This document shows positions 13,533 through 34,319 of a stretch of DNA of 52,224 bases, piece by piece (the first letter of the stretch is position 1; the number at the start of each line of letters is the position of its first letter). A program made the translations under genes and the position numbers. The notes under the pieces are model-generated. The model did not search any database and was not told the DNA's origin. It was given only the letters and a program-made list of their open reading frames with translations. Source of the stretch: Cudoniella acicularis (taxonomy: Eukaryota > Ascomycota > Leotiomycetes > Helotiales > Helotiaceae); NCBI GenBank assembly GCA_013054445.1, contig JAAMPI010000202.1:1-52224 (forward strand), written 5' to 3'.

Positions 13533-15083
13533 TCATCCCCAGACCTTCTCGAGCTCCTGGTGGGAGACTTTGGTCACCTCATTACTCTCATCCTTCGAAG
13601 TCTCATCGAGCGGATGGAAGACGTGAGTCCTCCACTTTCTAACAGGGATGTGCTCAAGGAAGAATCTATCGATCTCGGTATTCGTGCGTCCAGTGGTCTC
13701 TCCAACACAGAACCAGACATACGACAAGGTGAATAAAGTGGTACCAGCGAAGATAAAGCCAAGCATCGGGCCCAAATTTGCTGAGAAGTAAAGATAAGGA
13801 CTGACGAAAACCAGGAGCCAAACCGTAAAGAAGAACACACCGATGGCAGCGGCAGTGATCTTGTTTCGGTTGCGACCAACAGCCATTTCGGATGCCATCG
13901 TGTAGGAGAGTGTGCCGATGGAGAAATTGAAGCAAATGATGTTGATGTAGGAGAAGACGACGATTGTTATCCCAACGGGTTTGGAGAATGGACCTCCACG
14001 GTGAGTTGTGCCGAGACCACCAACGACGATGAGAGAGATTAACATGCCACATGTGCAGACCAATAGGTTGACACGGCGGCGCATCTTGTTGCCGAGAATC
14101 ACTGACAAGCCAACTGCCATGATTTGCAGGACGTTTGTGATAGTATTGATGGTGAAAGGTTGAGCAGTCCCGATGGACTGAGCGAAGACTACACCATAGG
14201 TGTACCAGAATTGAATGCCGTTGATCTGCTGTGCGAACATGGCACCGCATGAGTAGATGAGCTTGCGTCGCTCAACAGGATCGCGGAATACGGAAACCCA
14301 GCTAGATTGGTCTTCCATTTCGAGTTCCATGTTGACTTGATCTTGGATAACTTTCAGATCGGCTGCGCAATCGTAGCCTGGCATTGAGCGGTTGATCTTT
14401 TCCAGCGATTTCTCCGCCGCCTCATGCCTGCCTTTGTATACGTACCACACTGGACTTTCGGGTATGAATGGGAGGAGGATGATCATGAGTCCAGGGAGTA
14501 GAATGAGCAAGCCCATGGGAATGTGGTAGGAGTTCTTGTTGGGGATGGATTCGGTGCCTTGGTCGATACATGAGACGACGAATTGGGAGATCGATTGCAT
14601 GAATTGAAACATCATGAGTGCAGGGCCGCGGAATTCAGCAGATGCAACTTCACCAATATAAACCAAGCAAGTCGCGGTGAATTGACCAATTCCCAGACCA
14701 ACGAGGACTCGACCGACGGCGAATGCACTGTAGTGGCCATCTGAGACGAGCTGGACGACGGCGCCGAGGATGATGCAGATGGAAGCAGACAAGAAGACGG
14801 CTTTGCGCCCCCAAGCATCGTTGATTGGCGCAGTGATTAAGGCTCCGATAAATTCACCCACGTATATCAGAGACGCCGTGACAGAGAGGAATGTGGTCGA
14901 AAGTGCGTAAGTGCCATCGGCCTTCAATTCTCCGTAATCGTGGACGAAAGCTTTCATGCCCTGAATACCGGTGTAATAAATAGTATCGTATCCGTAGCAG
15001 AGAGCACCGATAGTAGAGACCAAGCAATAGAAAAGTGCCCATTTATGGTGCGCCCAGTTGATATTGAGGTTGAGGAGCGTCAT
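13533..15083 (-). CDS. MFS sugar-porter family transporter (alpha-glucoside permease-like)
   Basis: The open frame has its best start at the ATG at 15083, giving 516 residues, typical of the family. An upstream in-frame ATG at 15347 would add 88 non-homologous residues and is rejected. Landmarks in order are YGYDTIYYTGIQGMKAF in TM1, DAWGRKAVF (loop 2-3 signature), GRVLVGLGIGQFTATCLVY, PESPVWYVYKGR (the PESPRWL position), the long central cytoplasmic loop, QQINGIQFWYTYG in TM7 and ETTGRTNTEIDRFF near the end. This is the organisation of fungal maltose or glucoside proton symporters at the plasma membrane. There are no introns and no damage. Its position beside the phenolic-type enzymes suggests uptake of a sugar, a cyclic polyol or a phenolic glycoside; the substrate cannot be read from sequence. 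Confidence 0.92.
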   Translation of the reverse strand: MTLLNLNINWAHHKWALFYCLVSTIGALCYGYDTIYYTGIQGMKAFVHDYGELKADGTYALSTTFLSVTASLIYVGEFIGALITAPINDAWGRKAVFLSASICIILGAVVQLVSDGHYSAFAVGRVLVGLGIGQFTATCLVYIGEVASAEFRGPALMMFQFMQSISQFVVSCIDQGTESIPNKNSYHIPMGLLILLPGLMIILLPFIPESPVWYVYKGRHEAAEKSLEKINRSMPGYDCAADLKVIQDQVNMELEMEDQSSWVSVFRDPVERRKLIYSCGAMFAQQINGIQFWYTYGVVFAQSIGTAQPFTINTITNVLQIMAVGLSVILGNKMRRRVNLLVCTCGMLISLIVVGGLGTTHRGGPFSKPVGITIVVFSYINIICFNFSIGTLSYTMASEMAVGRNRNKITAAAIGVFFFTVWLLVFVSPYLYFSANLGPMLGFIFAGTTLFTLSYVWFCVGETTGRTNTEIDRFFLEHIPVRKWRTHVFHPLDETSKDESNEVTKVSHQELEKVWG

Positions 15084-15933
15084 TGCGACGATTTGAATGG
15101 GAAAATCGAAGACGGAAAGTTTCCAGAGGCGGTGTAAATGCTTCGAGGTCAAAGAACTCAAGAGACTCCAAGCTGATGGAAGGAACTGGGAGCGAAACTT
15201 AGGGATCGTCGAGCTTTTTATCCTCTTTCTAAGGCGGACTTCCATTTTGGGACAACAACCCCATGATGGGGTTGGGGTTGCGGGGTGAGCAGTGGCAGGT
15301 TCCCAAGTTGCAAGGCAAACCTCGCCTGTGGAGAGCCCTAAGGTCAAAGTGTCGCGTTCCGACGCAAGGGCGACGACCTAACAAAAAAGTAGCTTCAGCT
15401 TGCTGATTTAGAACGCGGCCTTTGACGGTCTGGATTTTGATAGAGATGAGCCCCCGTGTGCGGAGATGCGGAGACTCCATGTCAGCGGACTGTTTCCTAA
15501 TTGGGAAGTCCTACAATGAGGCGGCAAAGCCACTGGGCTTCCTTTTTGCGAGTATCAGCCCTCCATCTCGGCATCGCCGTAACCCGCAGTAGCAGCAGTT
15601 GAAATGCTCAGGTTACACAGTTGATGTTCTATTGAGACCTTCTAGCATACTTCTCCGAAAATGGATTTCAAGAACCAAGCTGGCGGGCATCACTAACTCC
15701 AAATGACTCGCTACACATATTCTTTGAGTGACTGGGAAAGTGGAACGTTTAGAGAACAGAAGTCGCAGCCCAGTTGATCTGGTCACTTGAAAGAGGGCAA
15801 ATTTGAGTGTGATATTTGTTCATCAATTCTTTTTTTACAAATCTATGTCCCCAGATCTCTATCTATCGCTAGAATGAATACAGGAATGAAAGCAGAATAG
15901 CATGACATACATTCTGAAGAATAAGAAAATGCC
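15084..15933. promoter_or_regulatory. intergenic between MFS and P450 (upstream of MFS)
   Basis: These 850 bases hold the promoter of the transporter and the 3' flank of the P450, both on the minus strand. No coding sequence is supported. One CGG-N5-CCG pair (CGGCATCGCCG, near 15572) is present but has no partner of the N3 type seen elsewhere in the cluster. Confidence 0.4.
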
Positions 15934-17553
15934 TCAATTCAATCGCCGCCGTGCAATCATTTCCAACTCTCCAGGATTAGAATTAAATCTCTCAATAGTC
16001 TCCAGCTCGAAGTCCTCGCTCAAAAACTCAAAATCAAACGCTCGCACCAAAGTGCCAATGACAATCAGCAGTTCGAAATACGCAATATTTCGCCCAATGC
16101 AGGCACGAGGTCCAGTGCTGAATGGGAAATGAGCCTTGCTCATTCGTTCCTTATCGCCATCAAACCACCTTTCTGGGATGAACTCCTCAGGCTTGTCAAA
16201 TGCGACAGGGTCCCGAAGCAAGGTGTATGTTGGCACCGAGACGGTGACACCTTCTGCGACAAACTGGCCTGCAATATAACGACCTCCTTTTGGCACAACT
16301 CGTGGTAAGCCAAAAGAACTCGCTGGACGGACGCGTAGGGATTCTTCAATACAGGCTCGTAGGAATGGTAAGGATGCTAGTGATTCGTAGGTTGGAACGT
16401 CAGAAGCTCCTATGGCGGCATCGAGCTCTGCTCGGAGCTTTGAAAGGACATCGGGGTGTTTGTAGAGAAGATAGATCGCGTTGGTGAGCGCAGCTGTTGT
16501 GGTATCTGTGCCGACGTTCATCATGACTGAGCATTCTGACAAGATCTCACCCGCTGATAGGTTGAGATCCTCTCCTTTTGAGCTGGTCAGCAGCTTTGAG
16601 AAAATGTCGTTTTCCGCGTCGGGATCGTGCAGTCTCTTCTTCGTATTGTGGAAGATGATGTTATCGTAATCTGCGCCGGCCTTCTTATATGGATGCCTCG
16701 AGAAAAGCTTCTTTGTGAGAGGAAGAATACCGGCTTCCATGCCGAGAATGGTGTTGATGATGGTGGCATCATGAAGACTCTTGATAAATGGCACTTGGTA
16801 GACTTTGCCGTCTTCGGCCTCTGCATTTACCATATCATCACCGCGCTCTAAACAGCCAAGCGTAGAACCATATAGCAGTTCAGCGAAGAGGTCGATGGTA
16901 TAATAATTGAGATAGCGGCGCATGTTGATGGGCTTCCCAGAAACAGCATGCTTGTCCACTTGCGCTACCAGAATGCCTGTGGTCTCTGTGACGATCGGCT
17001 CGAGATTTGCGATTGTCTTCTGGGCAAAGACGTGCGCCATCATCTTTCGTTTCCTCTGATGCTCAGCCTTGACACGTGTATCTGCCAGATGGCGGTGTTC
17101 GCCAGCGCCCCCATCATACCAAGCATCTTTGAGGAAGTTTGCGCCATGACCATAAATATCGGTAAGGGCTTGTGGGTCGGAGACGGAAATGTGATTTGGG
17201 GCGATGCGAACATGAGTGCCGAGTTTCTTGTGGGCCTCGTCAACGGCGAGATAATGCTGACATTTCAAGTTGTGGTATATCCTCCACAGAGATGAGAGCC
17301 CAGCATACGAAGGAGAAGCAAATTTGCGCAACGCTTTCTTGTCCAAGAAATAAAAAACGATTGGTTGAACCAAAATAGTCAAGGCTAAAGCCGCGGCCAG
17401 TACTGTATAGAAAGTTAGCAGGGGTTCAACTGTAAAGCAAAGAGAGAATTGGAGGTCTTGACATACTTTGAAGAAGCATTTTGATGATGGGGACTGTGAA
17501 AAGGTGTTGTTGTCACTCTGTGGTGAAAACTGGGAGCGTTTATAACAGCCCAT
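15934..17553 (-). CDS. cytochrome P450, benzoate 4-monooxygenase-like
   Basis: One uninterrupted frame of 539 codons contains every class II P450 landmark: an N-terminal hydrophobic anchor (LLTFYTVLAAALALTILV), the I-helix NVGTDTTTAA, the K-helix EESLR (ExxR), FIPERWF, and the haem loop FSTGPRACIGRN with the ligand Cys near residue 485. Sequence such as EAHKKLGTHVRIAPNHISVS and ETIERFNSNPGEL matches fungal P450s commonly annotated as benzoate 4-monooxygenases; true CYP53 identity is unproven. The start is uncertain. The long frame begins at 17553, but an ATG at 17479 plus a 37-nt GTATGT...ACAG intron (17466-17430) would also join in frame to the anchor; that intron would be very short. It is divergent from a P450 reductase relic, which suggests a dedicated redox partner once existed. 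Confidence 0.92.
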   Translation of the reverse strand: MGCYKRSQFSPQSDNNTFSQSPSSKCFFKVCQDLQFSLCFTVEPLLTFYTVLAAALALTILVQPIVFYFLDKKALRKFASPSYAGLSSLWRIYHNLKCQHYLAVDEAHKKLGTHVRIAPNHISVSDPQALTDIYGHGANFLKDAWYDGGAGEHRHLADTRVKAEHQRKRKMMAHVFAQKTIANLEPIVTETTGILVAQVDKHAVSGKPINMRRYLNYYTIDLFAELLYGSTLGCLERGDDMVNAEAEDGKVYQVPFIKSLHDATIINTILGMEAGILPLTKKLFSRHPYKKAGADYDNIIFHNTKKRLHDPDAENDIFSKLLTSSKGEDLNLSAGEILSECSVMMNVGTDTTTAALTNAIYLLYKHPDVLSKLRAELDAAIGASDVPTYESLASLPFLRACIEESLRVRPASSFGLPRVVPKGGRYIAGQFVAEGVTVSVPTYTLLRDPVAFDKPEEFIPERWFDGDKERMSKAHFPFSTGPRACIGRNIAYFELLIVIGTLVRAFDFEFLSEDFELETIERFNSNPGELEMIARRRLN

Positions 17554-18132: not shown

Positions 18133-18860
18133 ATGCTGCTCTTCAGTGACCTCGATATTCCCTTCCTCAAGGTTGTCTTTGCAAGTTTGGTCGCCTATAT
18201 CGTGAATCTTGCCGCGTCCCAACTAAATCGGAAACCCATTCTATCCCTCATCCCCGAAAAGAAGACAAAGCAAAAGAGTGGCACTCATGTCACAGCTCCA
18301 ACGAGTATCAAGCGAAAGCTTGAGCTTACGCAAACCAATGCGTGATTTCCTACGGCAGCCAGACCGGAACTTTGGAAAAGCCTGCAACGATCTTGTCCAA
18401 AGAGGCTCTTGCGAAATTTGGACTCGACTGCCTAGTCGCAAATCTCGAAGACTTTGATTACGATGACCTCCTGTCTTTGCTAGAAGATAAAGTGGCCATC
18501 TCCCTCTTGGCCACTTATCGCGAAGGCGAACCAACAGACAACGCGATTTCCTTTGATAAATACTGCAACTCACGGGAGAGGAGCATTGGCGCGGCCGCCA
18601 CTAGTGCCCACTATGCGGCTTTTGGGCTTGGAAGCAGTTCATACGCGCAATTTAATGCGATGATCAGACGCGTTGATTTGGCGCTGAATAGCATCGGTGC
18701 CACACGTCATGGCGATGTGGGGGTTGGAGATGATGTCCAAAACTCCACTCTGACATACGAAGCCGGAGACCACTTGGCTGTCTGGCTATCAAATGCAGAT
18801 ATGGAAGTCGCCCGATTCCTGGAAGTCTTTGGACTGAAGCAGAAGACACCAAAAATCCTC
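18133..18860 (+). pseudogene. NADPH-cytochrome P450 reductase, internally deleted relic
   Basis: A membrane anchor (FLKVVFASLVAYIVNLA) is followed after a frameshift near 18340 by the FMN-binding flavodoxin domain: ISYGSQTGTLEK, NLEDFDYDDLLSL, LLATYREGEPTDNAISF and YAAFGLGSSSYAQFN. The FMN loop carries Arg where reductases have Gly (TYGEGEPTDNA). Directly after GDVGVGDD the text jumps to LTYEAGDHLAVW and DMEVARFLEVFGL. That stretch belongs to the FAD-binding domain well over 100 residues later, so an internal block is missing. The NADPH-binding half is absent; after about 18860 the frame runs into unrelated AT-rich sequence. It should have supplied electrons to the neighbouring P450s at the endoplasmic reticulum. 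It cannot now do so, and P450s here would depend on the housekeeping reductase. Confidence 0.88.
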
Positions 18861-19313
18861 AAGCGAGGCCTTTTGCTGTGCTTCAGTGACGCCGCCGTCT
18901 TTGCACCAACTTTTAAAAAAGCTAAAATAGAAAAAAATCACAAGAACCCGAAAATGCCCCTTTTCGATAGGATTAATTCTCGTGAAAAGGAAATCATAAG
19001 TTTTGTGTTGTGTTTGAAATTTATTTATTAAAATAAAAGAATTATGAGAATTTTTTGGACTGTATTGCTGAAAAACGATCATATTGCTGAAGCGCACTAA
19101 AAAGCCTTACTTGTGAGATTTTTAGTGTAGTCCTGACGGACGATTAATTGGCTATGCGCGTCGCCGCCGTGCAGGTTCTGCTTCTGGCTCGAGTGGGAAA
19201 ACTCGCCATCAAGCTATACCCCCAAGCTAAGCCTGAGGATGGTTCGCTAGCAAACTACATGATAAATATACGTGCGAAGCTGTGTTCTCTGAAACCCAAA
19301 GCCAGCTCTTATC
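18861..19313. other. non-coding replacement of the reductase 3' half
   Basis: This stretch starts AT-rich (to about 19080) and holds no recognisable remainder of the reductase. A 60-codon frame at 19148-19330 overlaps the aldehyde dehydrogenase start and matches nothing I know. The rest serves at most as upstream region of the aldehyde dehydrogenase. Confidence 0.45.
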
Positions 19314-21234
19314 ATGGCAAAATCGGTTGAGGTCAGACTTTTCATCAATGGAAAGGTAAGAATCTCGAGAACTTTGATTCCCATGGTAACAAGGTGATCT
19401 AGTTTACGCCATCGTCTGACGGGGGAAGGTTCCCCATCTAGTCACCATACTCGGGAAAGATAGTTGCCGAAGGTGAATGAAACTACCTCCTCAGCTTTAA
19501 AGCCTAACCGGCGACTGGCTTTATTATATAAAGTTACGAAGCTACTGAAGACGATGTCAACGCGCTGTTGCAGCAGCAAAAGCCACATTCCCCGCATGGA
19601 GTGCATTATCACCAACAGAATGTGGCAAGCCAATGGCACAGCTAGCAGTCACTCTTGAGACTCTTCATGATGAACTGGCTGACCTGGAAGCATTATCAAT
19701 GGGAAGGCCTGTCTCTGGCTACATTGGCTTGAGAGGCGCCGCGCAAATATTCAAACAATACTCCGAGACGGGAATTAATAGCCGTGGAACTTCCAGCTTG
19801 AATACGCCCGGCTTTGTGAATATGACATTTCGATAGCCATATGGCGTGGCCGCTGCAATCATTCCTTGGAATGTGCCGTTGTATTTCCTCGCAAAGAAGC
19901 TGGCGCCTGCATTGGTCACAGGCAATACAGTGGTCTTGAAAAGTAGCGAAAAGGCCCCTCTAACGGTATGGAAACAGCCACTATAAAATGAAGATATTCT
20001 AATAGGCTTTAGTCTTTGAAACTGTTGGAGGTAAGGGTATAACCGTAGTACGCGGTATATAGTATATAGAGGATATATCTATATAGTCGTCGGTAGGCGG
20101 CTAAGGTGTGGGCGGAAGAAGAGTCGACTGTTAGGTCGAGAGTGATTCAAGTATGTGGAATAATAATATGATTTTGACTTAAAGACTTATCTATCTATAA
20201 AGGGGTGAGCGGACTATATATACTACAAGTATAGTTACTAGAAGCTTCTATATCATAGAAATCAAATAACAACCTAGAAGATTCTACTAAGTTTTAAACC
20301 TTAAGCCTAGAATAGTGCTTATTACTTAATAATACAACAGAAACTTGCAACACTTCTGAGCAAGGCCGGTTTCTCTGCTGGAGTAATTAACATTATTTCT
20401 GGCTTTGGTACATCAGGCGCCATATTAGCATCTCATATGGATGTCCGCGTACTGAGTTTCACTGGCTCGACAAAGACCGGGCGCAAAGTTCACAAGGCTG
20501 CAGCTGAATCCAACCTAAAAAGAGTTATTTCCGAATTGGCGGGAAAGTATCCAGCAATCGTCTTTGATGACGCCGATATCCACGATGCAGTCGAAGGCAC
20601 TCAACACAGTATCCAGTGGAATAGCGGCCAAACTTGCATGGCAAACTTTCGGATCTATGTTCATCAGAACGTTGCTGACGCCTTTTTTAAGAAGTTCAAG
20701 ACCAGATTCAGCTCTGCTCGCCTAGGTGATCCAACAGATCCTACAGTGAACCACGGACCTCAAGCGGACGAAATTCAGTACGAGACAGTACGCCAGTTCG
20801 TGGAGCTTGGCAAGAAAAGCGGCACGATAGCACTCAGGGGCGTCGAGGCGGAAGGGAGGTTTATCCTCCCAACGATCTTTACCGAGACGCCAGAGGATGC
20901 AAAAATCATGCGAGAGGAGGTCTTCGGACCCGTTGTCAACATTAACACCTTCGAGCGCGAGGATGATGTCATTACCAAAGCGAACGACTCAGAGTTCAGG
21001 TTATACGCAGCAGTATACTCCAGGGATATTGACCGGGCATTGAGAATGAGCCAGAGGCTTGAGGCTGAAACTGTGGGTATCAATTAAACGAGCCCCACAA
21101 CGGCTATGGACATGCCATTTGGAGGATACAAGGGAAGTGGTATTGGGCGGGAAGGATGGAACGAGAGCTTGGATAACTTTCTGGAGACGAAGACTGTGCT
21201 CATAAAGGTACAGAATAAACCACCCAATATGTAG
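19314..21234 (+). pseudogene. aldehyde dehydrogenase (NAD(P)+), broken
   Basis: The family is clear along the whole length: MAKSVEVRLFINGK at the ATG (19314), [34 protein letters not shown] (cofactor site), SELAGKYPAIVFDDAD with the general-base Glu, NSGQTCMA with the catalytic Cys, EEVFGPVVNI and DMPFGGYKGSG. Introns lie at 19356-19402, about 19472-19534 and 19966-20012. Lesions are an in-frame TAG near 19438, a one-base deletion near 19568 (in the Ala-rich helix), TAG before PYGV near 19834, a solo LTR at 20023-20339 inside the next exon, and TAA near 21085. The TAG before PYGV is where the family usually has Gln, so CAG to TAG is likely. Skipping to a later AG at 19439-19440 would bypass the first stop, but not the others. 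Expected role: oxidation of an aromatic or aliphatic aldehyde to its acid. Confidence 0.92.
20023..20339. mobile_element. solo LTR (317 bp) inside the aldehyde dehydrogenase
   Basis: The element begins TGTTGGAGG and ends TACAACA, so its ends form the TGTTG...CAACA inverted pair typical of LTRs. It is flanked by identical 5-bp copies of GAAAC (20018-20022 and 20340-20344). Removing it and one GAAAC restores the open dehydrogenase frame from the acceptor at 20012 through SLKLATLLSKAGF. It is therefore an insertion in an exon followed by LTR-LTR recombination. Confidence 0.9.
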
Positions 21235-21671
21235 CGGCTGCTCTTTAGTCTCAACAATAAATTTATAAGTTAAAAAGTGAAGCTTCTTTATGACCACACA
21301 GCACGCAAAACCTCATAGCTCCCAGAACAATAAGCCAGGTATTTAGATCATAGAGTAGCCTTGGAGATATGGTCATAATGAATGGCCATAACTAGGTTCG
21401 TCTTGGCTTATTTACGAATGGGCGACTTCGAAAATAGATGCCAGCTTCACATTAAGTTTTAACAACATATGAATGTTTGACATCTCGGGAAATCCAATCA
21501 GCTCTCTTGTTGGGACCCCAGACCACAAAGTAAGGAAAAGGCAAACGTGGAACCCATCACAAGTACAATAGTGACAAGCGGTGACCGAGCACAGAATTGC
21601 ATGGGAACTGGTTCAAGTGCGGCTTTAACATGTGCGTTCTCCGTTTTTCATAAGCGAAGGAAAATGTGCTG
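21235..21671. other. intergenic downstream of aldehyde dehydrogenase
   Basis: No gene is seen. The 3' part passes into the promoter of the second P450, whose base composition becomes GC-richer from about 21640. Confidence 0.4.
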
Positions 21672-21774
21672 CGGAACCCGCTCAAAGTTATATTAGCGGG
21701 ACCCGCTCTGTTACGGCACCGCGACAGACCCCTCTCACCGTAGTGTGGGTAGACGGAACGGGCCACGGAATCCG
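21672..21774. promoter_or_regulatory. three CGG-N3-CCG sites upstream of the second P450
   Basis: CGGAACCCG (21672-21680), CGGGACCCG (21697-21705) and CGGAATCCG (21766-21774) lie 136-238 bp upstream of the P450 ATG. Inverted CGG triplets with fixed spacing are the classic target of Zn2Cys6 homodimers. The second site extends to a 13-bp inverted repeat, AGCGGGACCCGCT. Three copies in 103 bp is far denser than chance would give. Confidence 0.6.
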
Positions 21775-21909
21775 ATCGTGGGGACTGCGGCGTTGTCTAG
21801 GATGGGGTTTCCGTGGCTAGGTATCAAAGGGTTCTTCGACGACATTGGACTTTCGTACCGAAACAACCACTTCTAGAGTAGTATTGGTTACTATTTTGCA
21901 ACAATTCTT

Positions 21910-24035
21910 ATGGGCCAACAACATAGGGCTGAGATTATGACTCTACAGCGTATTTCAAATGCGATTCCCCTGCATATGGGGTATGAAATAATTTTTGCAA
22001 TGTGGTTGAGTTTTGTTGCTCTGTCAATTTCCTACATCGTGTACCAACGATTACTCTCGCCCCTACGCAAGATTCCTGGTCCTTTCTGTGCCAGCATCAC
22101 TCCACTTTGGAGAATTCGACATGTTATAAAGGGTGACTGGCATGCAGAAATCACGAAACTGCATCGGAAATACGGTAAAAAGGCCCCCTCTTTTGCGGGA
22201 GATTACTTCGTCGTTTTGAAAAGCAACATTTCTAACCAGTCCTGTTCGCTTCCCAGGAAACACTGTTCGAATAGCCCCAAACGAAGTGTCTCTCAACACT
22301 CCATCCGCAGTTCATATAGTGTATGGACATACCGGAAAGCCGTGGGTCAAGGTAAGCCATTTACGCAGCGCGTATACATCTTCTTCACAGTCCTGATGAG
22401 CTTTAGGCAGCGTGGTATCAGGCGTGGTGGATCCGAAGTGACAACCATCCGTTCTTCGCCGAAATTGATCCTGCTCGACATCGAGATCTTAGGCGCCGGG
22501 TTTCCAAAGCGTACACGATGTCATACGTTCTGGCAATGGAATGGTATAACTGTTGACCAGTTGTTAAAGAAAAGAGGCTGAAACATTCCTAGTTACATAG
22601 ATAATATTATCGAGCTCTTTATGGACAAAATGTCTGCAAGTTCTGGCAGCCGCATTGATCTAGCGGAGTGGACACAGTTTTTCGCGTTCGACGTCGTTGG
22701 CGAACTGGCTTTTGGTAAGGAATGGGGGTTACTGGATGCGGGCAAGGACCACGACGGCCTCTTACATTGGGTCTACATGCTGTTATCAACAACTGCCTCG
22801 CTCGGGTGGACTTGGAAGACGCACAAACTTGCACGGCTTGGACTTGTGCGTTGGATCTTGAATAATCAACTTTTCAGCAGAGTCGGCAAAACCCTTGATT
22901 GCTGGCCGATGCCCGAGGTTCAGAAGGTGAGTGTTCCCTGTATTATTCTATTAGTAAAATACTTGAGCTAAGAGTCAAAGCGCGTCGTGACAAAGATGGA
23001 ATCCCACACAGACCCCGATCGAAATGACCTTTTAACACATTTCCAGCAAATGAAGAACCCTGATGGCAGCCCTGTGCTTCCTTTTGAGGTTCTCGGCGAG
23101 TCCATTAACGTTGTGGTTGCCGGCGCCGACACAACGGTCAGTTGGTTCTGATTCTTCATGAACAAGATGTTGACGGCTGACGTGAACAAAGGCAATTTCG
23201 ATTCGTGCAATCGTTCGTTTAGTTTCTAGTAACCCCCGTGTCTATAAGAAGTTACAGGAAGAAATCGATATGGCAAGTTATGCCGGCAAGCTGTCGCGAG
23301 TTGTGAGGTTTGAAGAAGGGCAGGGACTACCGTATTTTCAAGCTTGCGTGAAAGAGGCTCTCAGAATATTCCCTGCAGGTATACATATGGCTCTATATGA
23401 GCGTGATCGTCCCGATGAGCGAGGAAGCTAATGAAAATTTAGTTGGTTACCAACTGCCTCGAGTTGCTCCAGAAGGCACTTATATTGACGAAGTGTATAT
23501 CCCCAGAGGAGTTAGTGAACTCGTGCTCCTCGAAAGCGCATTTGACCACTAACATGGATATTAGACAACGGTGGGCATCAATGCTTGGAGCCTTCACCGC
23601 AACAAAGAAATCTATGGGGAAGACGCAGAAGAGTTCCGTCCTGAACGGTGGCTAGAAAAAGATAGTCCTGAAAATATCAAGTTGATGGAGCAATGTTTTG
23701 CCACTTTTGGCCTTGGAAGTCGAACCTGTATTGGTAAGAATATGGCACATATGGAGATATACAAGGTATTCCGTTTCCTTTCTGCACAGTCTGCTAGAGG
23801 TGGCTTAGTGTAAACGACGTCCACTTATGATAAAGCTAATCCCTTTTCATAGTTGGTTCCAACATTATTTAGAGACTTCGATATCGACATCTGCGATGCC
23901 GAAAATCCTTGGGTGCTCACGTGTGCATGGTTCGTCTACCAATCTAACTTTGGTGTACGAATGCATAAGAGACCGAAGGGTTCATCTCGTCCAGGAATCC
24001 AAGTAGAGAATCTTGACTCTCACGAGACTCTCTGA
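21910..24035 (+). CDS. cytochrome P450, pisatin demethylase-like (CYP57-like)
   Basis: Nine exons (21910-22174, 22257-22351, 22407-22543, 22593-22926, 22975-23136, 23192-23378, 23443-23510, 23565-23765, 23853-24035) join in frame to 543 residues with no stop. The landmarks are a membrane anchor, LRKIPGPFCASITPLWRIR, VRIAPNEVSLNTPSAVH, the C-helix HRDLRRRVSKAYTMS, I-helix VVVAGADTT, K-helix KEALR, FRPERWLE and haem loop FGLGSRTCIGKN with Cys about residue 471. The pattern matches fungal P450s annotated as pisatin demethylases; the reference enzyme O-demethylates a plant phytoalexin, but many relatives have other substrates. The gene looks fully functional although its neighbours on both sides, the aldehyde dehydrogenase and the amidohydrolase, are dead. 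Three CGG-N3-CCG sites lie in its promoter. Confidence 0.92.
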
Positions 24036-24244
24036 AGAATATCTATATGACAAATTGCTTAGAAAATTCCTCTGCAAAGCTTCAATATGGCATAGTTTCC
24101 ATCGCAAACACAATCACTTAGTTTAGCTAAAATAGGAATGAAAATTGGAGCCCTTAGCGCACCCAATGGTTCTTAACTTGCTGATATATTTTCCCTGACT
24201 CCGTAGGATCGCAGTTTGCAATCCTCAGCTGACATGTCTCTAAC

Positions 24245-24529
24245 TGTAGGAGTATACTACATGGTTATACAGTATATAGTCGGTAGGTTATAGCGAATAT
24301 CAATATATTATAGTAATTACAAGACTTAAGGGTTCTAATCCAAGTAAGAAACAGAGGCTCTATATATACTTAGTAGATTAATTCTAGTAAGTTCAATTAG
24401 GAGCAAATAGAACCTACTAGAACCTGTTAGTAATACTAGCTTACTAATTAGAAGTGTAAAGAAGCCTATAGAGTCTTTTACTAGATACTATATTAAGAAG
24501 GTTCTAGAAGGACTTATTATAAATCAACA
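24245..24529. mobile_element. solo LTR (285 bp)
   Basis: The element begins TGTAGGAGT and ends AATCAACA and is flanked by identical 5-bp copies of CTAAC (24240-24244 and 24530-24534). It resembles the LTR at 20023 in its start, in a GTATATAGTCGGTAGG-like word and in AT-rich body, so the two may be diverged members of one family. It lies between the second P450 and the amidohydrolase relic. Confidence 0.85.
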
Positions 24530-24534
24530 CTAAC

Positions 24535-25093
24535 AAAAGTCTATTATTCTTAGATTCGTGAAGTCAAGCTGGGTAAAACAGAATGCAAAGAATTTATGAT
24601 TCCCAAGCAAGGGCTTCCTTCCAAACACTTCCACTGTGCCGTTTATTAGAGCTTATTTATGTGTTCTGAAGAGTATTAGGTTACCATGCTATATCTCTGA
24701 GGTGCCATATTTAGTTTACGAGAACAACTTAGTAGTTATCGAGGTCCCAACGAGAACTGAATGTATGAACTTCGAGTGCCACCGCACCTTGTACACACAA
24801 TTTGCGATTTCAGGTCACCATAAATGCTGCTCTCTTCGAAAAAGAAAGGGGGCGGGGCGAAGGGGGAAATGGTGACAAATATGGTATACTATCAGTCTCT
24901 GACGCTCGCCCACTATATGTCAAAGCGAATGGCACAAGGAATAAGCTGAAAAAAACAAACCGACATTGAGCTAAACTTCATTCATTCACTGTAATCAATT
25001 CAGTTTATTTGTGCCCTTTTTTTTCATGAATATGAAGTAAAGATTTTTCAGCACTATGATGTTGACATAACTAACTTCAGACTCAACCCAGCA
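24535..25093. other. intergenic
   Basis: No coding sequence is supported. A short frame at 24636-24875 encodes nothing recognisable and ends in a poly-basic tail from a purine-rich tract. The rest is the 3' flank of the amidohydrolase relic. Confidence 0.4.
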
Positions 25094-26256
25094 TCATAGC
25101 TCCGAAGGAAATTTCAAAAGACGGATTTCATTCTGCCGGGCCACAGCATTCTTCTGATCTTCTGATAGATCCACTGGTTTCCACCATTCTTGAGCTTCGG
25201 AGATATTGTCGTACGGCGTGTCTTGGTTATATTAGCTTATGACTCATATAAACAGGAATATTAAGGCAATACCAATGGAATAAAGACATCTCTCAATTCC
25301 AAGCTCTGCAATACAGAACTTTAGACCTTTGGTAGAAAAGTTTCCCGACGTGGTAATGTACATGTTTTCGCGAAAATAGTACATGTAATCGTGGGCCGAA
25401 GGCCGAGATGCCCTCTTCTCCATTTTGTTGTACCAGTGAGATGCTCGGCACAGATTAAAAGGAATAATTGCTTGTGGTTAGCCAGCTACATTAAAATTGG
25501 GCAAACATACTTCTCTCCTAAATGACCAGCGATAATCTTGAGTTTAGGAAACCGGTCCAACACGCCTGAAGCTATTTAGTATAGAATGGAGGCGCCTACT
25601 GTGATTGTGTTTCTAATCCGAGGAGCAAAGTGCGTATATATGCCAGGATAAATCAAGATGGAATTGCACGCCAGCACCTATAAGGTTCTTCTTAGTGCCC
25701 TATATGTCCTCAAGGTCCTGAGACGTTGGAAAACGCGGATGGAGGTAGATAGGTACGTCAAGGTTTTCAACAACACCCAAAATAGACCATAATCGGGTGT
25801 ATCATAGTAGATATTCAGCTCATTCCTTCGGTTCCTGCAGCCTGATAATCATTGATCATCCCTCCAAGCATTCCAAGCTCTTTCACTGTTCAAGTGAGTT
25901 CCACAGCTGCTTGCTCTGGTCGATGCATAGAGAGTGGCGAATGCTCCGAAGCGTTGTGGGTTCTTCCTCACCTCCCCCGCAAGGTAGTTGTTTGCATTAG
26001 TAGCCATAGTTACTCAACTCCATTCGCCCTACCACGGCAGGTAGATCGACCCTTTTCGATAGGCTTGTTGATATACACTATATGAGATTGAAATATATGG
26101 ATGCGCATGGAGTTGAATACATGGTACTGTCACTAACAGAACCTGATCCGCAAGGTGAACTAGATGTGAATAGCGCTGAATATAGGCATACTTTTCGTGA
26201 ACATGAGGATAGCTAGGGTCAAGGATGGCTTCTTCAAAAGCAATTGTCCCTTTCAT
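25094..26256 (-). pseudogene. amidohydrolase, dihydroxybenzoate/gamma-resorcylate decarboxylase-like, broken
   Basis: The relic starts at the ATG at 26256 with MKGTIAFEEAILDP, the usual metal-binding N-terminus of the ACMSD-type decarboxylases. Reading through frameshifts gives ANNYLAGEVRKNPQRFGAFATL, KELGMLGGMINDYQ-like text, ENLDVPIYLHPRFPTSQD (metal His), VLDRFPKLKIIAGHLGE and NMYITTSGNFSTKGLKFCIAE. After a 50-nt intron come DTPYDNISEAQEWWKPVDLS and the stop at 25094. Several stops and frameshifts are present, and the ILSxTAPG region is unreadable. Intact members remove the carboxyl group of hydroxybenzoates without oxygen or cofactor. The reaction would follow aldehyde dehydrogenase and ring cleavage steps in a phenolic pathway. 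The exact substrate cannot be told. Confidence 0.85.
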
Positions 26257-26381
26257 CTTGAAAGTAGAACTGATGCCAGTGAAATTGGAAGTAATTTTGA
26301 AGTAATTTTGAAGTAATTTTGAAGGATCTAGCGAGGGGAGAAGTTTGGTCTTCTTAAAGGGTCTTTCAGCGCATAGGATAT

Positions 26382-26398
26382 TCCGCGAATATCGCGGA
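26382..26398. promoter_or_regulatory. 17-bp palindrome upstream of amidohydrolase
   Basis: TCCGCGA-ATA-TCGCGGA is a perfect inverted repeat with a 3-base centre, 126-142 bp upstream of the amidohydrolase ATG. It contains an everted CCG...CGG pair, another arrangement that Zn2Cys6 proteins can read. It also lies just beyond the stop codon of the hydrolase gene side of the spacer (26257-26500), which holds no gene. Confidence 0.5.
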
Positions 26399-26500
26399 GG
26401 ATTAGTCCGCACTCCGACCGCTCCATCAAGGGTCACATACTCTAGAAAGCAGCATTTATTTGAATGAAAATTATTGATTTTCGATTCTTTAACATGATAT

Positions 26501-27574
26501 CTAGGATATATGATTTGTCAAGAAATCTATACCATCTTGGATGTATTTAAACTGAGCATCACTCGAGTCCATTCCGCTGGCAAACCCGTGCGACTCGCCC
26601 TCTACCAACTGGATGCGTGTCTCGACACCCAGTTTGTGCAATGCTTCAGAAGCAGCAATACTGAACCGAGGCTCGATAAGGTCACCTTTGGTACCGTGAA
26701 TGAAGAATGTAGGCGGAAATTTTGGCGAGAAGAACCTCACAGGGTCAATCCTTTCATAGTCACCATCCTTCACGACCGCTTGCAAATGAGTTCCGCGCTT
26801 CAGCGAGTCAAAGAGCCAGGCATTGCGGGGGATTGATAAGTCCGGTTTAGGCATACCTTTCGATTTTGATGAAGTTTGTGACTTAGCGCTCCGCTCGAGT
26901 GAAGTTGCCGTAGTCGATATCACGCCTTCCTCGTAAACTTTGTTCAAAAAGGCTTCCTCGAACGGAGGGAGTTGGGCAAAAACCGGAAGAGGTGAGAACC
27001 AGAAGTTGTCTGTCAAATATTTCGCTCCGTAGAAGTCGAGTATCGCTTTAGGCGGGTCAGAATCTCCTCCCTATGAAGCGCAATCATTAGCAACGCATTC
27101 TTCATACTCCGTTTCGTGACCCGGTGAGGACGATTTACAAGGTAGAGAGCCATAAGTGCCCCAGCGGAATAGCCAACAGTGACGATCCGTGTGGGATCCA
27201 CCCTGACCTTGGTATCATTTGCCAAAGCTGCAGGAACTTAGTTTTGCACCAGGTGTATATATCTTTAGCATCCTGTAAAGGACCATCGTAGATGGATATT
27301 CCGGGACAAAGTTGGTAGTCTGGAGCAACCACAGCGAAGCCAGCCTCGGTCAGGCTCGCAATCTGTGCATGGGGGATCATGTCCTTCGAGCCGATAGTGA
27401 AGCCTCCACCGTGGAACGCAATAGCTGCATGAAATGAATAAGCTATGACAATGGGTAAAAAAATAGGTGCGTACCAATTGGACGAGGTTTGTTTTTCTCC
27501 TCCTCTGCCCAATACAAAGTAGTGAGAATGCTCTGTCCTTCCAACAATTTGTACGTGTAGTCTCTCGATTGCAT
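26501..27574 (-). pseudogene. alpha/beta hydrolase (HSL/esterase type) with one frameshift
   Basis: The ATG at 27574 opens MQSRDYTYKLLEGQSILTT. An intron at 27425-27474 joins NKPRPI to AIAFHGGGFTIGS, giving the oxyanion-hole HGGG motif. The nucleophile elbow GYSAG, acid KGDLIEP and base ESHGF complete the triad in the right order. A second intron (GTAAAT...CATAG, about 27066-27138) joins ALYL to GDSDPPKAILDFYG. The only lesion is a missing base near 27243, between YTWCKTK and PAALANDTK, which no intron explains. The gene is therefore either freshly inactivated or hit by a sequencing error. Esterases of this class cut short acyl esters, for instance of acylated phenolics. It is divergent from the cleavage oxygenase across a 295-bp promoter. 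Confidence 0.85.
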
Positions 27575-27869
27575 CTCGCCGTCAGTTCTCGATTTTCAGT
27601 GTTCGCTTCTGTGGTTTGTCATGACAGAATAGAGATGCAAGGCTCTATCACCGCTTCTTAATGATATCCGCTTTCCCCCCAGCACTGATCTTCGGAACCC
27701 GCGCGGAGATACGCAGCCGACTGGAGGGTTGCCTCCGGGAATCAACAATTTCCGCTTTCCGTGGTGTAAGGCGAACTTTAAATACAGTGGACATAAATTA
27801 GGAACGACGCCATTCTTCTGACACATTGCACTCAAAGGCCAACTACGACTTACAGCGTCGCGATACATA
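27575..27869. promoter_or_regulatory. divergent promoter of hydrolase and cleavage oxygenase, CGG-N3-CCG site
   Basis: CGGAACCCG at 27693-27701 is identical to the first site upstream of the second P450. It lies 119 bp from the hydrolase ATG and 169 bp from the oxygenase ATG, so one bound dimer could serve both genes. More CCG words follow (27730-27765, for example TTTCCGCTTTCCG). Confidence 0.6.
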
Positions 27870-29711
27870 ATGGCGAACATTACCGAGTGCGAGAATAAGC
27901 TCACCTTTCAGCCGGAAACCAGATTTCCGATTAGCGGGTTTTTTCAAGGCTCTGAAAAGCCATGCCGCTTCGAGGCAGAGGTTTACAATTGTGTCGTTCG
28001 AGGCACGGTCCCAAAACAGATTGACGGAACCTACTACAGATGCATGCCAGATCCCCATTGGGCACCCCTCTATGAGGATGATGTGTTTATCAATGGAGAC
28101 GGATGTATCGACGCCGTTCGTATTCAGGACGGCCACGCCGACTTCAAGCAAAAGTTTGTGCGGACCGAGAAGTTTGTTGTTGAGCGGGCGGCTCGTCAGT
28201 CGATTTATGGCAAGTATCGCAATCGGTACACCGACGATCCTCGTGTCAAGCATAGAGTCCACTCGACAGCCAATACGCACATAATCTACTTCGAAAATCA
28301 GCTTTTGGCACTCAAAGAAGATTCTCGTCCTTATGCTATGGATCCTGACAGTCTTGAGACCAAGGGTATGACAGCCTACCAAGCCATCTTCTAACCTGAG
28401 CTAATCAAACCTTGCAGGTCTCTACGACTTCCATGGTCAGTATGCGGCTCCAACACATACAGCCCATCCCAAAATTGATCCTCATACTGGCGAATTAATT
28501 ACAATGGGGTATGAAGCCAAGGGTGATTCCACTACAGATGTTGTCTACTACCTCTTTGACAAAGACGGGAAGAAGCTTGAAGAATGCTGGTTTAACGCCC
28601 CTTACGTTGGTATGATGCACGATATGGCTGCCACTGACAAATGGATCGTGTTCATCCTCACGCCACTGGCAGCCGTTCCATTAAGCTTGTTGGAAGAAGG
28701 CCATAAACATTTTGCTTGGGATGAAACCAAACCATTGATGTTCGGTATTCTTCCGCGTCGAAATCCTAGACCGGAAGATGTGAAATGGTTTCATTACGAC
28801 AACGCATTCTACGGTCATTCTGGGAATGCATTTGACGGCGAAGATGGTTGCGTATACCTCGATGCACCGTTAACCTACTTGAACAAGGTAAGCATTGCGT
28901 CTGTCCTTGCCTTCCATCCTCAGTACTCTTCTCTTTCTTTGATCCATTCTAGGGATTCTGTACTGACCACTGATTACAGTTTTGGTTCTTTCCGCCAGTT
29001 GGACAGGGCATGGCCAACGCACCCAGCTCGAAGCCACCCGTTGGGAAGGCAGCCAGTCACTATGTCCGCTGGCGGTTCGACCCCAACGCTGCGGATGGCC
29101 GCGTAGAGCCGCAAGAGCTTGTTGCTATCGATGGAGAAATGCCTAAGGTTGACGACCGCTACGCCACGAAGCCATACAAAAACCTCTTTCTCAGCGTGGC
29201 AGATCCAAGCAAGAAGAACTCACCGGTTGGTGGAACTTACAACGCAATCGCCAGGTGCGATGTTGATACTGGTAAGTATACTTACTGGTCCGCTGGTGGA
29301 GACACTGCCCTGCACGAAGTGGCTTTTGTTCCCCGAACTCCTGATGGTATGTACAAACCTTGATTTCTCTCATGCACCTTACATCCTCGTGGCAGAGACT
29401 GATATGTACAAAACACAGCACCTGAGGGGGACGGTTTCGTGCTTTCTGTTGCCAATAGGCGCGATACTATGCTGTCCAGTATCCTTATTCTCGATACTGC
29501 TGATATGCCTGCCGGGCCAGTTGCCATCATTGAGCTTCCTTTCCGACTGCGTAGCGGCATTCACGGTAGTTGGGTACCAGCAGCGGACTTCGCAGAAAGG
29601 AAAGACTTGTGTGATATGCATGGTGTAACAAAGGAAGTACATAGAGAATTTGGGAACACCACTGTTAATTTGCCTGCGGTCGCCATCAAATCAAACGGAG
29701 TTCATAATTGA
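27870..29711 (+). CDS. carotenoid/stilbene cleavage oxygenase (lignostilbene dioxygenase family)
   Basis: Four exons (27870-28365, 28418-28887, 28980-29346, 29419-29711) join in frame to 541 residues. The four iron-ligand histidines are all present: TAHPKIDPHTGE (H182), GMMHDMAATD (H233), FYGHSGNAFD (H299) and GIHGSWVP (H493). The second-shell Glu is likely E375 (AIDGEMPKVDDRY). Tyr116 (GKYRNRYTDD) and Lys149 (LALKEDSRPY) sit where, as I recall, stilbene cleavers such as NOV1 and Neurospora CAO-1 use Tyr and Lys to hold the 4'-hydroxyl. This favours stilbenes (resveratrol or piceatannol type) over carotenoids. The products would be two benzaldehydes. There is no signal peptide, so it is probably cytosolic. 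The gene is intact, with a Zn2Cys6-type site in its promoter. Confidence 0.93.
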
Positions 29712-30624
29712 CGCGGCTCTGTTCCCAAAGGCATTCTCTGCCTCACGATCTAGTCACACATTATAGTCCTATTCTAGACGAACATTTGATCATTGCAATT
29801 ACTGAAACTGGCATCCCACTTGAGCGATCTCCATCTCAGTTCATAACCTGTAATCTTGGCCTGTGAGACATTAATTTGACGGGTTGCGTACTTTAATAAC
29901 AGCACAATGAACTTTATGGACCAAACAGTCAGCATTTCCCCATTAACTAGAAGCATGTCTTTCCATCCCAACATCAATAACAGCCTGGCCCCGGGGAACA
30001 CGATGTGCGGTATAACGAGAAGCCTTAAAACTAAATAATCATGAACGTGGGATTTGAAAGCATGCCCCACCTCATGAGCTCACTGTCTGAGGATGCACCA
30101 CGATGCTGATGTTCAGGAGGCGAAGGTCACGGCTGTAATATAAAGCTGAATTCTATGGATTTTTTGAATAAATCTTGAAGCAAATGAATTGAATTATACG
30201 GTGGCCGATTCGAACCCTTCATGAATCATTCATGAAATCTTTGAAGAGCCTTGGCAAGGCTCAATCGGGCCTTTCGGGGCTTGATTTGGTGATTTTTGAT
30301 CATACTAATCTTATTGTTCTTAATTCAACTTCATTCAATTCAAATTCAAACTAGCATTTCTCAATTAGTCTTCGTTCAATTCAAAGGCAGTTAGACCCTC
30401 TTCAAATTCAAAGTCTTCAAATCTCAGCCCTAGCGAAGGGGCTATTACCAGGTCCATCAGCAGAATTACGGGACGGCTCAGAAGAAGTGATCGTTGAGTG
30501 GTGCTACATAAGGGGTTAGTAAAGGCGATGTGGGGTCTCGGCTCGGAGCCAGGTGCTTACTGGGTTGGGAATTGGGGTTTGCGTCCATTGGAGTTCGATC
30601 AGAAACTTTCCGACCATACTGTTG
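29712..30624. other. intergenic upstream of the Zn2Cys6 regulator
   Basis: No gene is seen. The middle contains an almost perfect inverted repeat, TTCATGAATCATTCATGAA (near 30221), and a run of ATTCAATTCAAATTC words (30320-30410). An open frame from 30498 and a longer one from 30553 cross the region but encode no known protein before the zinc-cluster exon. Confidence 0.4.
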
Positions 30625-30633
30625 CGGGGGCCG
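30625..30633. promoter_or_regulatory. CGG-N3-CCG site upstream of the regulator
   Basis: CGGGGGCCG lies 98 bp upstream of the regulator ATG (30731), centred in the wider inverted pair GTTGC...GCAAC. It has the same spacing as the sites at the second P450 and the oxygenase, consistent with autoregulation. Confidence 0.45.
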
Positions 30634-30730
30634 GCAACAATTTTCGGCAGATGCATGATTGTCATGGGGTTTGTGGGGTTAAGCGAGTATGCGGGGTTCC
30701 GTATACTTGTACGTGGTCTCAACTTCTTTA

Positions 30731-33219
30731 ATGGCAGGCAGGCCGTAGAATGCGGCGCTCACAATAGATCGACGACGACGTTCCACCTTCAGTTACGACA
30801 ATTGTCGTATACGCAAGGTCAGGGTAAGTTTGACGTGTGTAGCCTGGGAGACAACGGACAGCTAATCTTTTCTTCGCAGTGCAATAAACTCGAAGGCGGA
30901 TCCTGCGAAAGATGCCTGAAATACGATAAAACTTGTATGAATAGCCAAACCAAAACTTCCCGTCCACAATACCAAACCTCCAAGGAGCAGTTTGAATTGA
31001 TGACGGCGGCTCTCCGGCACTTTCTACCTTGCATTTCTCTCGAAACGAATCACCTTCGGCAGGCCGTGAAGGAGCTTTCTGCAGAGGACACACCAGGGGC
31101 GAGATATCCGCCGAGGAAACAGAACGAGTCGTTGTCTCCGCCAGAAAGAGCAAACAATGCAGCAATCTCTCAACATGACAGCGAAAGGGAACAGACCACC
31201 AGACGTCTGACAGAAGAGCAAGAACGTGTCAATGAGGGGGAAAACATCGATGGCGAAGTCAATCAAGAGGAGGTATGTACCGGGGGAAAGGATGTTGCAC
31301 CATATCTGGGAGCACGATCATCAAGGCAAGCTAGCCTAGAAAGTAAACTAGAAGACGCGCAAACCGAATTGCCGCAATCTAGGCCTTTGAATGCTCTGAG
31401 GGAAATGGACGAGTTCCAAGACTCAAGGTGTGAAACACAAGACATATCAGTTGACTCGTGGTCTACATCGCTTCTTTCTCCTCCCAGTTCCGACTCGCCT
31501 TGCCAGTCTATCATGGACGACGGTGTTATGTTCGATGATGCCATGCACATTTCCCGTCAGTGGCCCCGATCTTGGTAATCATTGGTCGTCACTATAACTG
31601 GTGCACTAGGCTTCCACTATGGCTCTAGTTATTCAGCATTTTTTCTCAAACTGAATGAAGGTCTTGCATCTACACCTAACAAGCTTTTCCATCGGCATCA
31701 CAGCACAACTTTTGACAGCTGGGGAGTTGATAGTCCCGTCGCAATGATCCATCCTCAAGATCTTCCCCCTCGGCAGGATCTTGTCAAAGCGGCCAAGATT
31801 TTTTTTGCTGAGGTTAACGGTGTTATCTATATATTACAGTATGAGCGTTTCCAAAACGATATTGGAAACATCTATGCCAAACGCTTTCCTATCACCAATG
31901 CTGGTCTTGCAATCCTGTACTTGATTCTTTCCCTATCTGAGAAGCATGAAAACTACTTTGCGGATGCATGTCGATATTGTAATGTGGCACTGGAAGAGAG
32001 TAGCATGGAAACAATTCAAGCTTTGATGCTGATGGTAAGATGCCATCAAAGAGATTTGTGATCCTGTGCTGATTTGAATAGACAATTTGTCATCTGAACC
32101 GAAACCAGAAAAATCTTGCTTGGATTGCTACAGGCTCGGCAATCAGAATAGCGCAATCTCTTGGTCTACACACACATGAATCTCAGTGGAACGACGAGCT
32201 CCCCTTTCAGATTGAGAGCAAAAAGCGTCTCTGGTGGTCTCTCTACAGCCTCGAAACAAGTCTCACCTGTAGCTCAGGTTTACCGCCGGGAATAGACGAG
32301 AGCATATGCCGAGTGTCATTCCCTAGCGAAATGGTGAGCTTATTTTAGGGAGATTTACTTCTTTTAGCACTAACCATCTCACAACAGGAATCTGACTTAA
32401 ATCCCTATAGCCCTCCCGGTTACGCTTCGGCATCGGCACAACTTGGTAGGCTACTTGGCCGGACTTTACGCCAAGTGTATATGCACAAATCTGCAACAGA
32501 AAATCCAAACCCTCCTATAAGCGCGCTCCTTACGAGCTTGCAAGAGTGGTGGGCTACTATACCAGCTTATCTCCGACCTGATTGCCCGACGGCGCCGTCA
32601 AATATTCGTGCGATCTGTCACTTAAGCTTGCGCTACTACCACATCATCACTCTAATCACCCGGCCTTACCTCCTCTATTCTGTCACATGCTCGAATCCTC
32701 TCGACGAGATTTCTACCCAGCGTGTCCAACTGTGTGAAGATGCTAATCACGAGTCCATACTCGCGATCAAGAAATTAGCCAGCAATAACTTGATCAGCAG
32801 GGTAAACTACTTCGACGGCCTCTACATTATTGCAAACAGTATGATACTATTTCTCCGCTGTCTCAGAAATCCGTCCGTGGAACTAGCGAAGCTAGCAGAA
32901 GAGATGGTGCCAATTATGGAACTGGTGGATCATCTCAGCTTTACAAGATATGGGCTTGAATCAATGCACCACCTACTCGAAGATCTCAAAACCTTCTACG
33001 CGAGGTAATGACCAAACTTCATTAGCCAAACAATGTGCTCATTCTTTAAATAGTGGCGAGTCCTCATATTCAGACATGTCTGGTTTTACATCCTTCGGCT
33101 TGGATTCACACGAAGCGGTCCCAGATCTATGGGATTCCATGGGTTTCTCATGGCCAATGGATTGTACAGACACAGAGCTACTAAATGTCTACAGCGATGG
33201 TGCGATGGAGGACATGTAA
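30731..33219 (+). pseudogene. Zn2Cys6 transcription factor with damaged zinc cluster
   Basis: From the ATG at 30731 the frame meets TAG at codon 6, then continues in the same frame into RRRRSTFSYDNCRIRKVR. An intron (GTAAGT...CGCAG, ending before TGCAATAAA) joins this to CNKLEGGSCERCLKYDKTC. In Zn2Cys6 proteins the motif begins CxxC; here the first Cys is Tyr (SYDNC), so five of six ligands remain. Later exons carry the PF04082 domain (NRNQKNLAWIATGSAIRIAQ, KKRLWWSLYSLETSLTCSSG, LPPGIDESICRVSFP) and an acidic C-terminus ending at 33219. Introns lie near 31557-31610, 32035-32081, 32334-32388 and 33007-33054. Both lesions fit C:G to T:A changes in CpA context. An unseen upstream exon could avoid the stop but not the lost Cys. 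It is the likely pathway regulator of the cluster. Confidence 0.8.
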
Positions 33220-34262: not shown

Positions 34263-34319
34263 TTTGAGCGATAGAGTGAGAGAAAAAGGCCGAGTGTTTG
34301 GGAAATATTTATGGCATTA

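Follow-up and report, generated by a model that had tools for sequence, protein, structure and literature searches.

We identified a probable decaying catabolic gene neighbourhood of the stilbene cleavage oxygenase (SCO) type on contig C953 (52,224 bases; the whole contig is hereafter the window), part of a 53.2-Mb draft genome assembled in 1,836 contigs. The introns and regulator families of the contig point to a fungus. Between 13.5 and 33.2 kb, a stilbene-type oxygenase is linked to genes of phenolic-catabolism type, several of which are broken. The block encodes, in order, a major facilitator superfamily (MFS) sugar porter, a first cytochrome P450 (P450 #1), a P450-reductase relic, an aldehyde dehydrogenase (ALDH) pseudogene, a second cytochrome P450 (P450 #2), an amidohydrolase pseudogene, an alpha/beta hydrolase, the oxygenase and a Zn2Cys6 regulator, all within 20 kb (Table 1). 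The MFS, oxygenase and both P450 genes have undisturbed reading frames, in which over 2,000 codons in all are free of stops and frameshifts. The ALDH, amidohydrolase and reductase genes are three clear pseudogenes, the hydrolase has one apparent frameshift and the regulator has an altered zinc ligand. Comparisons were drawn within this one genome and against chains of the Protein Data Bank (PDB); gene models were made by hand without transcripts, and several lesions were called by eye on three-frame translations.

Sequence comparison supports grouping the oxygenase with stilbene cleavers and not with carotenoid cleavers, as an earlier note on this DNA had proposed. The gene is read from four exons (27870-28365, 28418-28887, 28980-29346 and 29419-29711), and its product covers positions 2-469 of the 469-position Pfam RPE65 profile (1.1e-127). 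Its best PDB matches are CAO1 chains (3.7e-121 to 4.6e-120), aligned with query residues 14-501. Lignostilbene dioxygenase 9lp3 scores 1.2e-118 and further dioxygenases of that kind reach down to 1.1e-105, whereas chains of carotenoid 9,10-dioxygenases and apocarotenoid cleavers trail far behind (2.9e-44 or weaker). CAO1 Tyr133 and Lys164, which presumably hold the 4'-hydroxyl of the stilbene, stand opposite identical residues in the oxygenase. Four histidine blocks (TAHPK, MMHDM, YGHSG and GIHGS), whose histidines we take to be metal ligands, are kept in the alignment with CAO1. A motif scan found both the Tyr and the Lys block in two of the five RPE65 loci of the genome, the window and contig C228. 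On C1739 and C1272 a contig end truncates the oxygenase gene, which leaves C482 as the sole informative negative.

It is very unlikely that the oxygenase cleaves carotenoids and that the block is an apocarotenoid pathway. Both kinds of enzyme belong to the Pfam family RPE65 and apocarotenoid pathways can have ALDH partners too, but we ruled out carotenoid cleavage as our principal interpretation because the ranking of PDB matches and the kept Tyr/Lys pair favour stilbene cleavers. No carotenoid-biosynthesis family was found among the window open reading frames (ORFs) given to Pfam, a subset of the ORFs.

Part of this linkage recurs at another locus of the genome. Four other contigs carry RPE65-family matches (C228, C1739, C1272 and C482), and the nearest relative of the window oxygenase among them is on C228 (46% and 36% identical over two stretches; C1739 reaches only 20%). 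C228 also encodes the nearest ALDH (55-57% identical, the best of 36 match places besides the window's own) and the nearest regulator found (24-26%, the better of two other matches to the piece searched). The trio lies within 7 kb on one strand, in the order ALDH, regulator, oxygenase (C228:2139-8927). In the reverse comparison, the window ALDH was the best match (56.9% versus 53.2% for the next, among 7 loci, window included, out of 37 match places), and the window regulator scored 1.9e-15 versus 1.2e-9 for C645, the two loci compared. C228 makes up 17.9 kb of the 53.2-Mb genome, and we roughly estimate the probability that two further nearest relatives would fall on it by chance to be of the order of 1e-7. 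Because the nearest relatives of the oxygenase, ALDH and regulator co-locate on C228, we regard the trio as a linked unit; linkage beyond one locus was found for these three genes, within this one genome. The matched exons of the C228 oxygenase and ALDH contain no stops. Neighbours of the C228 trio include a SnoaL-like gene, pieces of a berberine-bridge-type oxidase and a weak O-methyltransferase match below cut-off.

The earlier note described a partly dead cluster, and reading frames, fragmentary Pfam matches and tblastn alignments agree in placing the disruption in ALDH, amidohydrolase and reductase. The ALDH pseudogene has in-frame stops near 19439 (depending on the intron reading), 19834 and 21085 and a frameshift near 19570. 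It is also interrupted by a repeat with at least 54 matching stretches in the genome, its own copy included (40 of 187 candidates scored), and the longer matches elsewhere are 84-97% identical. This repeat resembles a short mobile element without coding capacity. In the amidohydrolase pseudogene, stops, frameshifts and a micro-inversion leave no ORF spanning the whole Amidohydro_2 domain (PF04909). Residues 47-81 of a paralogue on C1646 match the inverted segment on the plus strand (65.7%, 3.7e-11), and the start and later parts match the minus strand on either side. Pfam gave no match for the amidohydrolase piece 26032-26517 and no PF04909 hit on the contig.

What had been read as a dedicated P450 reductase is a truncated relic. 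In the piece scanned, its FAD_binding_1 match covers only positions 34-73 of 222 (1.8e-7, just under the curated cut-off). By eye on the three-frame reading, the N-terminal frame is apparently shifted relative to the remainder and the greater part of the protein is absent; the set of flavodoxin, FAD and NADP domains is incomplete, with no further part recognised downstream. The hydrolase retains HGGGF, GYSAG and a C-terminal Asp/His, all seen by eye, and its frames join only with a frameshift. Its C-terminal piece has only a below-cut-off Peptidase_S9 match in Pfam, and no other copy of that piece was found in the genome. In the regulator, the first zinc-ligand cysteine position is Tyr, and Zn_clus still scores above cut-off (25.4 versus 21 bits); the Fungal_trans domain is matched over positions 2-240 of 262, both scores coming from a hand-spliced model with a placeholder start.

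Could an intact cluster have been corrupted by sequencing or assembly? The assembly is a draft in many contigs, and the lone hydrolase frameshift could be such an error. As an account of the lesions together this is extremely improbable, because the multi-copy repeat inserted in ALDH, the micro-inversion in the amidohydrolase, where stops also occur, and the loss of most of the reductase are not base-calling errors. Repeat-induced point mutation (RIP) was also considered as a general source of the damage. Of 52 one-kilobase intervals, 5 (starts 1, 5001, 12001, 20001 and 24001) have dinucleotide indices that pass customary RIP thresholds, one of which holds the ALDH insert and another the AT-rich gap after P450 #2. 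The RIP-like intervals touch the four intact genes only at the last 35 bases of P450 #2. We rejected RIP as the general cause, since few intervals pass and essentially none lies over the intact genes. An AT-rich stretch (24230-24560), tested as a repeat, has no second copy.

The whole block may be dead, with the open genes merely not yet hit and the organism depending on C228 alone. We consider this quite possible, although we lean against it. It would fit the three pseudogenes, the frameshifted hydrolase and the Tyr at the zinc-ligand position of the regulator, and it would agree with a decaying SCO-type locus as to past activity but not as to present activity. It fits less well with the length of open frame retained across four genes, and with an oxygenase that keeps its recognised catalytic and metal residues.

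Candidate binding sites for a Zn2Cys6 protein provide a lead, not a result, on possible co-regulation. CGGN3CCG occurs four times upstream of P450 #2, once in the 292 bp that separate the starts of the divergent hydrolase and oxygenase genes, and twice ahead of the regulator gene, the start of which is uncertain. One further site lies near the start of the C228 oxygenase. Seven hand-delimited upstream regions (3,943 bp) hold seven sites, where the frequency in 100.6 kb from other loci in the genome would predict 0.39. Seven of the 12 sites in the window fall in upstream regions (binomial 8e-6; 4e-4 after correction for 48 patterns), and dinucleotide shuffles of the whole window gave 5.45 expected versus the 12 seen, with 2 of 100 shuffles reaching 12. 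Among the 48 CGG/CCG spacing patterns tried, CGGN3CCG alone stood out clearly. Inverted N5 and N10, everted N2, N12 and N13, and direct N14 (p 0.005-0.035, uncorrected) were set aside. No 9-mer or 10-mer is shared by four or more of nine upstream regions (seven in the window, two on C228).

Several observations weigh against treating the block as one co-regulated stilbene pathway. First, counting the P450 #2 sites once raises the p-value to 0.003 before correction for the 48 patterns, and four of the seven upstream regions (MFS, P450 #1/reductase, ALDH and amidohydrolase) have no CGGN3CCG. Paired CGGN3CCG forms occur twice in the 53-Mb genome versus three times for the reversed control, and therefore pairs alone prove nothing. 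Second, tblastn of window ORFs (1e-4) found no relative of the MFS, P450s, hydrolase or amidohydrolase on C228, so some of these may be chance neighbours. Third, Pfam names no family in the three pieces of the C228 regulator that were scanned; the gene is called a regulator because it is similar to that of the window. Finally, the closest solved relatives of the C1646 amidohydrolase paralogue are 2,3-dihydroxybenzoate, salicylate and gamma-resorcylate decarboxylases (7wjr, 6jqw and 3s4t). Decarboxylases of this type act on ortho-hydroxybenzoates, which are not direct products of resveratrol cleavage and so suit the family less to that substrate; the pathway would thus require either a 2-hydroxylated stilbene or an earlier hydroxylation step by a P450.

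By sequence, then, a core module is common to the window and C228 and the partner genes differ, since the trio recurs on C228 and the other members lack relatives there. A narrower functional unit would accommodate this pattern: the oxygenase, ALDH and regulator, perhaps with the hydrolase and amidohydrolase, next to an MFS, P450s and a reductase relic that have no connection with it and lie nearby in a repeat-rich region that has undergone rearrangement. Such a unit is compatible with an SCO locus and incompatible with the full pathway; we hold it to be tenable but rather doubtful. The trio is all that the two loci share. The nearest MFS paralogue (C1413, 53-61% identical) adjoins a transaldolase-like ORF and a Zn2Cys6-like ORF, seen by eye, and the best relative of P450 #2 elsewhere in the genome is on C300 (33%), a contig unrelated as far as seen. 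Rearrangement is shown by the repeat element, the micro-inversion and a transposase piece to the right of the block. Against the narrower unit speak the four sites upstream of P450 #2 together with an identical 9-mer in the hydrolase/oxygenase promoter, and the presence of all the genes inside 20 kb.

Returning to the block as a decaying SCO-type neighbourhood, we infer the following substrate, order of steps and present activity. Originally, the regulator would have switched on the uptake and release of a phenolic, and the oxygenase would have cleaved a 4'-hydroxystilbene at its central double bond, yielding two aromatic aldehydes. ALDH would have oxidised these to benzoates, which the decarboxylase and the P450s would have fed onward. 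At present, cleavage and P450 oxidation may persist, with the aldehydes left to other ALDHs, for example that of C228. The earlier note proposed a chain of reactions that begins with import and runs on to ring hydroxylation. This chain is plausible as an ancestral function and is not a current capability of the locus, because the genes for aldehyde oxidation, decarboxylation and the dedicated reductase are broken. Family membership is the sole basis on which ester removal, ring hydroxylation and demethylation were placed in it. A tempting reading is corrected here: the pathway is logical on paper and is not a working one.

A more speculative scenario, which we regard as unlikely, is that a catabolic pathway is turning into pure detoxification. 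The oxygenase and P450s would be kept, and the carbon-yielding steps (aldehyde oxidation and decarboxylation) and the regulator would be decaying because the SCO cluster on C228 would supply the ALDH; the window and C228 clusters would both derive from a common oxygenase-ALDH-regulator module.

Table 1. Features of the gene block, with positions in the window
Feature	Position	Strand	Evidence
MFS sugar porter, uninterrupted ORF with its start probably about 98 codons in	13536-15377	-	PF00083 4.4e-81
Cytochrome P450 #1, single ORF, 546 codons	15937-17574	-	PF00067 profile 22-441/462, 2.9e-71
NADPH-cytochrome P450 reductase relic	18136-19031	+	PF00258 flavodoxin 1.5e-21 and FAD-domain scrap
Aldehyde dehydrogenase pseudogene	19313-21210	+	Pfam Aldedh in pieces; three-frame reading; pieces align with C228 ALDH
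Repeat element of about 300 bp inside ALDH pseudogene	20035-20335		Genome-wide copies
Four CGGN3CCG sites (three CGGRAYCCG), candidate Zn2Cys6 binding sites	21579-21774		Upstream of P450 #2
Cytochrome P450 #2, 9 exons, no disruption found	21937-24035	+	Spliced reading; PF00067 profile 19-445/462, 1.4e-65
Amidohydrolase (benzoate-decarboxylase family) pseudogene, several stops and frameshifts	25095-26257	-	tblastn with C1646 paralogue; frame reading
Micro-inverted coding segment of about 100 bp inside amidohydrolase pseudogene	26061-26165	+	tblastn with C1646 paralogue
Alpha/beta hydrolase (esterase-like), one apparent frameshift near 27230	26501-27577	-	PF07859 6.5e-7 on N-terminal piece
Candidate site CGGAACCCG, 9-mer identical to one upstream of P450 #2	27693-27701		Hydrolase/oxygenase promoter
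RPE65-family stilbene-type oxygenase, 541 aa, intact, 4 exons	27870-29711	+	Spliced reading, Pfam, PDB comparison
Zn2Cys6 regulator, start codon not found, near or before 30743	30743-33219	+	Fungal_trans 8.3e-21, Zn_clus 1.5e-5

Pfam profile matches uphold the gene identities first given for the MFS, the two P450s, the ALDH remains, the esterase-like hydrolase, the oxygenase and the Zn2Cys6 regulator; the amidohydrolase was recovered only through its C1646 paralogue. When eight proteins were compared with NCBIfam, the sugar-porter subfamily alone scored above cut-off (TIGR00879, for the MFS). Bacterial equivalog models gave sub-threshold matches for both P450s and the ALDH pieces; for the two amidohydrolase relatives and the hydrolase piece there was no matching model. 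The best-scoring relatives of P450 #1 in the genome are on C1093 (35%) and C18 (44%). P450 #2 has GT..AG introns of 48-87 bp and the heme-binding motif FGLGSRTCIGKN. The reductase relic shares 49% identity with a frame of 682 codons on C1604, and its other matches in the genome are only on C1604 and, weakly, C224.

Elsewhere in the genome, no comparable cluster surrounds the amidohydrolase relatives of C1646, C365 and C1280 (10 kb each, ORFs of at least 110 codons, read by eye); the C1646 gene lies at a contig end, its flank on one side unseen. On C482, the contig end carries an N-terminal piece that is ALDH-like, some 9 kb from the RPE65 gene; the genes between the two are unrelated (by eye). 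On C1272 (26001-35298), a P450-plus-reductase-type ORF with weak tblastn matches to both window P450s lies several kilobases from the carotenoid-oxygenase-family gene cut by the contig end. The part of C1739 that was read contains no relative of window genes besides the oxygenase. C385 (1-10000) has an ALDH relative with stops inside the match, which may be introns or lesions, beside ORFs that by eye resemble a sugar porter, a metallo-beta-lactamase and a dehydrogenase.

Further features flank the block. A PRISE-like Rossmann-fold fragment (33959-34345; PF22917, 2.9e-18) lies at its right edge and may be continued by the ORF 33769-33996 (by eye). To the right is a DDE_1 transposase remnant (35288-35680), which we take to be of pogo/Fot1 type, followed by pieces of a further P450 in separate frames on the minus strand (41734-42586). 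At 1453-3839, an NPHP3_N-type NTPase piece precedes ankyrin-like ORFs (by eye) over several frames. The contig start (27-305) is similar to DNA close to an amidohydrolase locus of C1208 and is probably a repeat.

The window and C228 thus hold stilbene-type loci of different make-up within one genome; the former is decaying and the latter is lesion-free in the exons examined. Together they would constitute a natural experiment on how fungi gain and lose resistance to plant stilbenes. Within the window, lesions of several kinds (repeat insertion, micro-inversion, truncation and point lesions) lie beside undisturbed P450 and oxygenase genes.

Several known systems resemble parts of the block. The best solved relatives of the window oxygenase are 6n1y (3.7e-121), 5u8x (4.7e-121) and their variants, which we take to be CAO-1 of Neurospora crassa. 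Lignostilbene dioxygenase 9lp3 is related to both oxygenases, is the closest PDB match of the C228 protein (6e-146, with the first 309 codons as query) and is nearer to it than to the window protein. P450 #1 may resemble CYP53 benzoate para-hydroxylases in sequence style, judged by eye; neither name, CYP53 or benzoate hydroxylase, appears in the 60 of its 359 PDB matches listed. The amidohydrolase shares the family of the 7wjr, 6jqw and 3s4t decarboxylases by way of its C1646 paralogue and differs from them in being a pseudogene.

The closest counterpart of the locus as a whole is the fungal SCO gene cluster. Gluck-Thaler, Vijayakumar and Slot reportedly described such clusters in 2018 (Mol Ecol), in three types with alternate phenolic-catabolism genes, and SCO enzymes are there said to be limited to 4'-hydroxystilbenes and related molecules. 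Gluck-Thaler and Slot are likewise said to have treated clusters with stilbene dioxygenases across fungi in 2018. The earlier note knew of no described fungal cluster with exactly this set of genes, and such novelty is doubtful in light of these reported clusters. They likewise link a CAO1-type oxygenase to phenolic-catabolism genes in alternate combinations, to which the two loci here correspond in their shared core and differing partners. The window locus differs in being largely pseudogenised, and we consider it a decaying member of an already described kind of cluster, not a new pathway.

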